Positions 35,178 to 38,341 of a stretch of 64,000 bases of DNA are shown here, in pieces (positions within the stretch are counted from its first letter, which is position 1; each line of letters opens with the position of its first letter). Both the position numbers and the translations under genes were made by a program. The DNA is from Geminicoccaceae bacterium (GTDB lineage Bacteria > Pseudomonadota > Alphaproteobacteria > Geminicoccales > Geminicoccaceae): assembly GCA_025999455.1 (NCBI GenBank), contig AP024683.1, positions 3,102,451 through 3,166,450 on the forward strand. Direction: 5' to 3'. The notes beneath the pieces were generated by a model. That model was not told the DNA's origin and ran no database searches. It worked only from the letters and a program-made list of their open reading frames with translations.

Positions 35178-35253
<76 letters not shown>

Positions 35254-35403: not shown

Positions 35404-35432
35404 GTGACAGGCGAGGCCGTTCAAGCTAGGAT
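35404..35432 (+). promoter_or_regulatory. Promoter of the BLUF gene
   Basis: GTGACA (35404-35409), 17-base spacer, TAGGAT (35427-35432). The leader to the start codon is about 80 bases and contains GGGGGAGG at 35443-35450. Confidence 0.55.
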
Positions 35433-35521
35433 GCTCGATCAAGGGGGAGGAGATCGGAACGTGGTCGGCGAGCCGCGATCGCGGGCGTCGGTCCGCGTCC
35501 GGACGCCGGGGAGCGCCGGCC

Positions 35522-36751
35522 ATGATGGAAGGCGCGGGTTCTCTCGCTCACGTCGACACGTTCAGCTACGTGAGCCGCGTCCGCGGGGATTGGCCACGCT
35601 CCCGACCGCAGGATCTCGTGGCGCTCGTCCGCGAGGCAGCGGAACGCAACCACGACCGTGACGTCACCGGCCTCCTGATCCTCCACCGGGGTCGGTTCCG
35701 GCAGTGGCTCGAAGGCCCGCCGGCCGCTATCGGCCCGCTCCGTCGGGTGATCTTCGAGGACCCGCGGCACCATGTCCTCGCCGCGCAGGACACGGTCTCG
35801 ACCCGCCACCGACGCTTCCCGGACTGGCCGCTCCACCTCCTCTGCGCGCCCGAGGACGTCGACCTGCGGCGGAGCCCGGTGCTCGACCACGTCACCTTCG
35901 TGCCGAAGGCGCTGCTCGAGGCGCGCGGGCCGGCGCCGGTCTCGATCCCGCTCGCGGTCGCCAACTGTGCCGCCGCGACGCTCTGCCCGGCGCGCCAGGC
36001 CTGTGTGGGTGGCGGCCGGCCGGCGCCACGCCACTGTCCCGCCGAGAAGCCCATTTGCAGCGGCCGTGCTTTCGGTCTGCCCGACCCGCTCCTCTTGGCA
36101 TCCGCCGCGGTGCGCGGCCCGGCCGCCCTGCGCTCGTGGCTGCCGCGACCCGAGGACCGGTTCGATCGAGCCGCCCTCGCCGACGTCGTCGAGGCCGCGA
36201 TCGACCGTCTGGGCGAGGCGTGGCGCGCCGACCGACTGTCGGACGCCGAGGTCACCTTGGCCCTCGCCGAACTCTACCGCGTGCTCCGGCCGCTCTGCGA
36301 CGCGCGGCCGGTCTGGCGGTCCCGAGCCCGGGTGCTGATCGCGAGCTTGCGCGGCTCCTCGGCCGTGATCGGGCCGATGCTCGAGGCCGATCTCCTGATC
36401 CGTGCCGGGTTCGACGTGATCGTCCGCCACGGGCTCGACACGGCGGAGCTCGAAAGGTCGGTCGACGACCTCGCGGCCGACGTCCTCGTCGTCGCCGGCA
36501 GCCGACCGTTCGTGTCGCATGCCGAGCGGGTGGAGCTCGTCCGGGTGCGCGAGTCCCGAGGTCTCGCCCGTCGGGTCGGGCTCGTCGTCGACGAACCGTC
36601 CGGCGGTGCGGCGCGCCCCTGGAGCGGGATCGTGCGGGCCGTCGAGGCCGCGCTGGGCCGCGTGCCACTTTCGCAGCCGGTCACCGGAGCAGGTTCACCG
36701 GAAACCGCCACCCCCGCACCGTTCGACCGCCGGGTCGAAGCGCGCGCCTGA
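35522..36751 (+). CDS. BLUF blue-light sensor with cysteine cluster and B12-binding-like domain
   Basis: A 409-residue protein with three parts. Residues ~12-108 are a BLUF flavin domain: Y16 (TFSYVSRV), N43 (AERNHDRDVTGLLI) and Q61 (RFRQWLEGP) of the photocycle are present; W102 is kept but the usual Met two residues on is L104. Residues 149-179 hold five cysteines, C-x5-C-x5-C-x10-C-x6-C. Residues ~266-380 (RVLIASLRGSSAVIGPMLEADLLIRAGFDVI, in part) resemble a cobalamin-binding/SCHIC domain with GSSAVIG replacing DxHxxG. AppA of Rhodobacter, a BLUF-SCHIC antirepressor, is the nearest known architecture. Its partner is unknown. Confidence 0.85.
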   Translation: MMEGAGSLAHVDTFSYVSRVRGDWPRSRPQDLVALVREAAERNHDRDVTGLLILHRGRFRQWLEGPPAAIGPLRRVIFEDPRHHVLAAQDTVSTRHRRFPDWPLHLLCAPEDVDLRRSPVLDHVTFVPKALLEARGPAPVSIPLAVANCAAATLCPARQACVGGGRPAPRHCPAEKPICSGRAFGLPDPLLLASAAVRGPAALRSWLPRPEDRFDRAALADVVEAAIDRLGEAWRADRLSDAEVTLALAELYRVLRPLCDARPVWRSRARVLIASLRGSSAVIGPMLEADLLIRAGFDVIVRHGLDTAELERSVDDLAADVLVVAGSRPFVSHAERVELVRVRESRGLARRVGLVVDEPSGGAARPWSGIVRAVEAALGRVPLSQPVTGAGSPETATPAPFDRRVEARA

Positions 36752-36835: not shown

Positions 36836-38341
36836 ATGCCGTTCGATTCCTTGCGCGATTTCATGGATCTCCTGGAGCGGCGCGGCCGCCTCGTGCGGGT
36901 GAAGGCGCCGGTCTCGCCGGTCCTCGAGATGACCGAGATCCACACCCGGCTCTTGGCGGAGCGCGGGCCGGCCGTGCTCTTCGAGAACGTCCAGGGCTTC
37001 TCGATCCCCGTCCTCACGAACCTCTTCGGCACGGTCGAGCGGGTCGCCTGGGGGATGGACCGCGAGCCGCACGAGCTCGAAGAGCTCGGCCGCATGCTCG
37101 CCTTCTTCCGCCAGCCGCAGCCACCCGAGAGCATGGGCCAGGCGCTCGAACTCCTGCCCTACGTCAAGATCGCGCTCGCCATGAAGCCCAAGACCGTGGG
37201 CCGGGCTCCTTGCCAGGAGGTGGTCCTGCGCGGCGCGGAGATCGACCTCGGCCGATTGCCCATCCAGACCTGCTGGCCGGGCGAGCCCGCGCCCCTCATC
37301 ACCTGGCCGCTCGTCGTGACCAAAGGGCCCGGGGAGGCGCGCGAGGACAAGTTCAACCTCGGCATCTACCGGATGCAGGTGCTCGGCCGCGACCGCACGA
37401 TCATGCGCTGGCTCGCCCATCGCGGCGGCGCCCAGCACCATCGGCGCTGGAAAGCGGCGCGCAAGGAGCCCTTCCCGGCCGCGGCCGTGATCGGCGCCGA
37501 TCCGGGGGTGATCCTGGCCGCCGTCACCCCGGTGCCCGACACGCTCTCGGAATACCAGTTCGCGGGGCTGTTGCGCGGCAAGCGGGTCGAGCTCGTCGAT
37601 TGCGTCTCGGTCCCCTTGAAGGTCCCGGCCACGGCCGAGATCGTCCTCGAGGGCCACGTGAGCCTCGACGAGTACGCCGACGAAGGCCCCTACGGCGACC
37701 ACACGGGCTATTACAACGCCGTCGAGAAGTTCCCGGTCTTCCAGCTCACCGCGATCACGATGCGGCGGGACCCGATCTACCTCTCGACCTTCACGGGCCG
37801 ACCGCCGGACGAGCCCTCGATCCTGGGCGAGGCCTTGAACGACGTGTTCGTGCCGCTGCTCCGCCAGCAGTTCCCCGAGATCGTCGATTTCTGGCTGATC
37901 CCCGACGCCTGCTCCTATCGGATCGCCTGTGTGTCGATCAAGAAAGCCTATCCCGGCCACGCCAAGCGTGTGATGATGGGGGTCTGGTCCTATCTGCGCC
38001 AGTTCATGTACACGAAATTCGTGATCGTCACCGACGACGACATCGACGTGCGCGATTGGAAGGACGTGGTCTGGGCGCTCTCGACCCGGGTCGACCCGGC
38101 GCGCGACATGGTCGTGATCGAGAACACGCCGATCGACTATCTCGACTTCGCCTCGCCGGTCTCGGGCCTCGGCTCGAAGCTCGGCATCGACGCGACCGAC
38201 AAATGGCCCGGCGAGACGAGCCGCGAATGGGGCACCAAGATCCGCATGGACGAGGCGATCGTCGAGCTCGTCTCGCGGCGCTGGGCGGAGTACGGGCTGC
38301 CCGGCTCGGGCCGACCGATCTGGCGCCGGACCGACCGGTGA
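36836..38341 (+). CDS. ubiD: UbiD-family prenylated-FMN decarboxylase
   Basis: A 501-residue UbiD-family enzyme that removes or adds CO2 on aromatic or unsaturated acids using prenylated FMN. Motifs: [18 protein letters not shown] at the start, [20 protein letters not shown], and the active-site [14 protein letters not shown]-terminal [15 protein letters not shown] and DKWPGET are typical. Start ATG at 36836. Overlaps the next gene by GTGA. It could act in ubiquinone synthesis (4-hydroxy-3-polyprenylbenzoate) or on another acid; no ubiX is next to it. Confidence 0.93.

Follow-up and report, generated by a model that had tools for sequence, protein, structure and literature searches.

What light-sensing protein of photosynthesis control could a bacterium keep when it has no reaction centre, and what would such a protein do? 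The question is raised by a gene in a 64,000-nucleotide stretch of DNA (the window) from a member of the Geminicoccaceae (Alphaproteobacteria), whose genome, G000, is a single contig of 3.76 Mb and 99.7% complete. The gene is one open frame at window positions 35522-36751 (+ strand), exactly as originally predicted, and encodes a 409-residue protein, P0001, with a BLUF domain, a linker containing four conserved cysteines, a four-helix bundle and a SCHIC domain. By analogy with AppA, we lean towards reading P0001 as an AppA-type light-controlled protein-interaction switch, with a metal or redox cysteine site in its linker and a partner other than PpsR in this host.

The BLUF domain (residues 14-103; 35561-35830, + strand) is the only one in the G000 genome and the only Pfam match in P0001 above the cut-off (PF04940, 63.2 bits against a cut-off of 25, E = 2.5e-17); AppA_4HB matched weakly. 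The photocycle residues Tyr16, Asn43, Gln61 and Trp102 are all present, as had been predicted, and together with the BLUF profile they indicate that P0001 probably binds a flavin. Among 48 BLUF domains that we compared, the Asn and Gln occur in all 48, the Tyr in all those covering the position and the Trp in 45. The original prediction also singled out Leu104, at the position of the semi-conserved Met. The substitution is real, but it is a common natural variant (nine of the 48 domains, three of them P0001 and its orthologues), also found in the BLUF-SCHIC fusions of genomes G352 and G174, and we rejected it as a special feature. Since the Met is important to how AppA and PixD signal (PMC4630285), the Leu may nevertheless affect the output of P0001.

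The C-terminal part comprises a four-helix-bundle cap (residues ~186-256; 36077-36289, + strand) and a SCHIC/B12-binding-like Rossmann domain (residues ~266-385; 36317-36676, + strand). Residues 30-328 align to full-length AppA with phmmer (E = 4.6e-14). A profile of residues ~212-382 from two orthologous sequences retrieved AppA (4heh, E = 6.7e-8) and AerR (E = 3.2e-4) from the PDB, and hhalign matched the C-terminal profile to 22 SCHIC/PpaA proteins (97.4%, E = 9.5e-12). Structure prediction of the full-length protein from a three-row alignment was too poor for use (pLDDT 39.8), while a model of the C-terminal domain from a two-row alignment was of moderate quality (pLDDT 61.5, pTM 0.54). 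This model shows two helices followed by four beta-alpha units. Foldseek ranked the AppA-PpsR2 core complex first and AerR second, followed closely by further AppA entries, CarH and photocobilins, and VIA-align gave Z scores of 10-13 to many B12-binding domains, including that of AppA. As judged from these profiles and the predicted structure, the C-terminal part adopts a diverged form of the four-helix-bundle/SCHIC (B12-binding) fold. The predicted combination of BLUF and SCHIC/cobalamin-like domains and its likeness to AppA are thus borne out by sequence, by profile and by predicted fold, with a clear match of residues 266-380 to B12-binding domains.

AppA of Rhodobacter (Cereibacter) sphaeroides (PDB 4hh0, 4hh1, 4hh3, 4heh) has the same order of BLUF, linker, four-helix bundle and SCHIC, and it too lacks the canonical cobalamin His. 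P0001 differs from it in having Ser at the heme ligand His284 and Leu for Met106. The Cys-rich region of AppA is C-terminal (PMC4844311; it is also named in the PDB titles), whereas P0001, with its last cysteine at residue 259, has no such tail and carries four conserved linker cysteines instead; its host, moreover, has neither PpsR nor reaction-centre genes. P0001 is AppA-like in layout, yet we do not class it as AppA, because P0001 was checked for the heme ligand and the Cys-rich tail, and G000 for a PpsR partner, and all three are lacking. PpaA/AerR and CarH also share the four-helix cap and the Rossmann B12-binding-like fold, but P0001 has a BLUF domain in front and Ala281 in place of the cobalamin His (GExHxxG-type loop), and, unlike CarH, it has no DNA-binding domain.

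What is new in P0001 relative to AppA-type sensors is a four-thiol site in the linker. The cysteines of the protein are residues 108, 149, 155, 161, 172, 179 and 259, and the stretch from 149 to 179 has exactly the spacing C-x5-C-x5-C-x10-C-x6-C that was originally described as a cluster of five. Only its first four members are conserved: residues 149, 155, 161 and 172 are exactly in register in both orthologues (G004 and G005), but C179 (36056-36058, + strand) is Gly in G004 and not Cys in G005, so the actual conserved motif is C-x5-C-x5-C-x10-C (35966-36037, + strand). C108 is also missing from the G005 orthologue. When P0001 was shuffled with its composition preserved, C-x5-C-x5-C arose in 22 of 20000 sequences and the four-cysteine motif in none. 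The block is otherwise variable (45-58% identity), with 12 of its 31 columns invariant, the four cysteines among them; the chance of all four falling in invariant columns is ~0.016, a hand estimate from three sequences. AppA has no central cluster of this kind, as the original prediction held, nor have the BLUF-SCHIC fusions of G352, G174 and G426, which contain zero cysteines between the two domains.

The spacing of C149, C155 and C161 is that of Cys93/99/105 in NsrR and Cys92/98/104 in IscR, which are Fe-S ligands (PMC5411485). In contrast to these Rrf2 regulators, P0001 has a fourth cysteine ten residues further on and no sequence similarity to them, and no winged-helix domain was found among Pfam matches above the cut-off. 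On these comparisons P0001 is not an Rrf2 protein and has the ligand spacing alone in common with the family, a lead on chemistry rather than a sign of homology. Searched by itself, the cysteine block gave no credible chain in the PDB (best E = 1.1, chance-like), no match in Pfam, Fe-S families included, and nothing in viral contigs. We infer that the linker cysteines are best read as a metal or redox site; it is their spacing and number that point to an Fe-S cluster. Four cysteines would also suffice for a tetrahedral zinc, and the block could be a structural zinc site or a set of disulfides that stiffens the linker, with light as the sole input, a reading that overlaps ours in overall function. 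The variability of the rest of the block and its failure to match an Fe-S family would suit such a site, but the block lacks the CxxC pair typical of structural zinc sites, and the x5-x5 spacing is the one seen in the Fe-S regulators of the Rrf2 family. We therefore regard a purely structural role as possible, though not as the probable one.

P0001 has two orthologues, both from the same genus (G004, 64% identity; G005, 55%), and scans of genome contigs with single sequences and with profiles returned these two alone. The comparison thus covers three sequences, two of them from metagenome bins; the G005 orthologue stops at residue 205 at a contig end, and that of G004 also ends at a contig end. 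Beyond the genus, none of the genomes sampled (385 from the class and 398 from the phylum) encodes the same protein. A plasmid search gave partial matches only, mostly to BLUF domains, and the longest (Sphingobium, to residue 174) overlies a short BLUF protein.

The three species differ in their photosynthesis genes. PufL/M-type genes are present in G004, together with two PpsR-CrtJ proteins and, close to the PpsR genes, an ordinary PpaA, while the other five genus members have no reaction-centre genes. A search for PpsR-like repressors, suggested with the original prediction, came out differently by species: G000 (best TIGR02040 match 34 bits against a cut-off of 275) and G005 have neither PpsR nor reaction-centre genes (Photo_RC), whereas their phototrophic sister has two copies of PpsR. 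Reaction-centre genes occur in nine of the 31 family genomes, and the GC content of the photosynthesis contigs of G004 showed no foreign sign; loss in G000 and G005 seems likelier than gain in G004. PpsR is also present in G352, G174 and G426, and reaction-centre genes in the first two. Because G004, G352, G174 and G426 carry PpsR and G000 and G005 do not, P0001 belongs to a sensor lineage that is found with PpsR and has been kept in at least two species without PpsR or the photosynthetic apparatus. In G004 (L114, G004:C97:56000-75000), the two PpsR-CrtJ genes lie ~5 kb apart with the PpaA homologue near, an arrangement typical of a photosynthesis gene cluster.

This distribution would also be expected of a relic, an AppA-like antirepressor left without purpose once the reaction centre and PpsR had gone from its lineage, and now drifting. 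The absence of both from G000 and G005 and their presence in G004, the presence of reaction-centre genes in nine family genomes and the absence of the BLUF gene at the same site in two further genus members (G001 and G003) all agree with this, as does a dN/dS near 0.4. Between G000 and G004 the ratio is ~0.41 for the whole gene and ~0.36 when the bundle and SCHIC core are taken alone, which indicates constraint on the gene, although not a strong one. However, the frame and all BLUF photocycle residues are intact in both non-phototrophs, the four cysteines and a promoter-like element have been kept, and the bundle and SCHIC core is 74% identical between G000 and G004. A drifting remnant is, in our judgement, rather unlikely, and the best reading is that a BLUF-SCHIC protein of this type was kept after photosynthesis was lost.

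The axial ligands of the tetrapyrroles are His284 for heme in AppA and His145 for cobalamin in AerR (PMC9144470). In the alignment these positions are occupied by Ser279 and Ala281, in G000 as well as in G004, the two sequences that cover them, which agrees with the predicted absence of the His ligand motif. In the cap, the Trp is kept (Trp234) and the Phe (AerR Phe101) is replaced by Asp241. Beyond residue ~347 the alignment with PpaA proteins is lost. With substitutions at both known axial-ligand positions in both species, a cobalamin or heme input to P0001, originally proposed to converge with the others, is unlikely. That a different ligand, such as the conserved His in VRHGLD, lets the SCHIC domain bind cobalamin or heme, so that three inputs converge, is improbable: the B12-binding-like fold, the retained Trp234 and the conservation of the His-Gly-Leu-Asp stretch in G004 would permit it, but Ser279 and Ala281 in both species, Asp241 in the cap and the lost alignment to PpaA proteins all speak against it. 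Having lost the tetrapyrrole ligands, the SCHIC module is, by analogy, most readily understood as a docking domain. A degenerate PpaA/AerR-like protein in Rhodospirillum rubrum still regulates (PMC10734443).

Under the preferred reading of P0001 as a light-controlled interaction switch, blue light would excite FAD in the BLUF domain and, as in AppA, switch the hydrogen bonds of Tyr16, Gln61 and Trp102. The signal would then travel via beta5 and the C-terminal helices of the BLUF domain to the linker, whose four cysteines may hold a metal or an Fe-S cluster, or serve as a thiol switch, and could thereby gate its passage to the four-helix-bundle/SCHIC module. A transcription regulator would dock on this module, much as PpsR is bound by the SCHIC domain of AppA. 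The partner in G004 is probably PpsR, and a different one is expected in G000 because neither reaction centre nor PpsR is present there; the metal or redox chemistry, the partner and the output are what we infer for P0001. A narrower version, which we put forward tentatively and consider doubtful, places an Fe-S cluster in the hinge that joins the flavin domain to a docking domain derived from SCHIC and free of tetrapyrrole; the light signal would then be relayed only under a particular redox, iron or NO condition, in a sensor whose target has changed from PpsR to one outside photosynthesis.

AppA is the textbook example of light and redox signals being integrated by a single protein, and the coupling of its parts is still debated. 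If our reading is right, P0001 would be a natural variant with redox-type cysteines in the coupling element, a dismantled tetrapyrrole site and no usual target, so that light, redox and docking would be separable; it would also reveal how a photosynthesis regulator fares once photosynthesis has gone. Should the linker cysteines carry an Fe-S cluster, P0001 would be, to our knowledge, the first such BLUF protein, and a search of open-access papers revealed no such protein among those listed.

The BLUF-SCHIC fusions of G352 and G174 (another alphaproteobacterial family) and G426 (another class) have the same architecture as P0001. They differ from it in keeping a ligand motif (PGEAH, PGEPH or PGEQH), in having no linker cysteines and in coming from genomes with PpsR. 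Those at L049 (G352) and L056 (G174) are ~350 residues long (frames of 391 and 370 residues), carry PGEAH and PGEPH and belong to phototrophs with PpsR; they are AppA-type proteins that retain the cobalamin-type His. In a tree of SCHIC domains, P0001 and its G004 orthologue group with AppA (95/85), with all branches long, and in a BLUF tree the P0001 group lies beside G352 and G174 (80/79). G042 (L059, 1282-2193 and 2889-3431) and G540 (L099, 2521-3309 and 1390-2217) each have separate SCHIC (PpaA-like) and BLUF genes, near one another and on the same strand, a natural two-piece version of the fusion, as if AppA had been split. This neighbourhood fits a functional tie of both domains.

At its own locus, the BLUF gene follows tRNA-Ala(CGC) (35178-35253, + strand) in G000, G004 and G005; in G001 and G003 this tRNA gene is followed directly by ubiD, and in G002 the locus is interrupted by a contig end. 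On the right lies a ubiD-family decarboxylase gene (36836-38341, + strand). Adjacency to ubiD says little, because all six genus members have ubiD, whether or not the BLUF gene is present, and we rejected a functional link between the two as unsupported. A defence role of the locus was likewise rejected, as PADLOC gave no match. Upstream of the gene, no PpsR box (TGT-N12-ACA) was found in any of the three species. A promoter-like element, GTGACA-N17-TAGGAT, is present at 35404-35432 (+ strand), and its core TGACA-N17-TAG also precedes both orthologues; its distance to the start codon is 92 nt in G000 and G004 and larger in G005. Support for it is modest, as some common word of such form appeared in one third of shuffles. 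Three independent assemblies break at or near the BLUF-ubiD junction (G004:C175/C181, G005:C59/C70 and G002:C15), which may be hard to assemble. Between the promoter-like element and the BLUF gene, window positions 35443-35463 contain a strong Shine-Dalgarno-like sequence, GGGGGAGGAGAT, with a GTG (35461) after it in a different frame from the gene. In G004 and G005, too, there are short leader frames downstream of the element; the one in G004 comprises 22 codons, and its terminal GTGA overlaps the start of the BLUF gene. Such frames could possibly encode a leader peptide or provide translational coupling.
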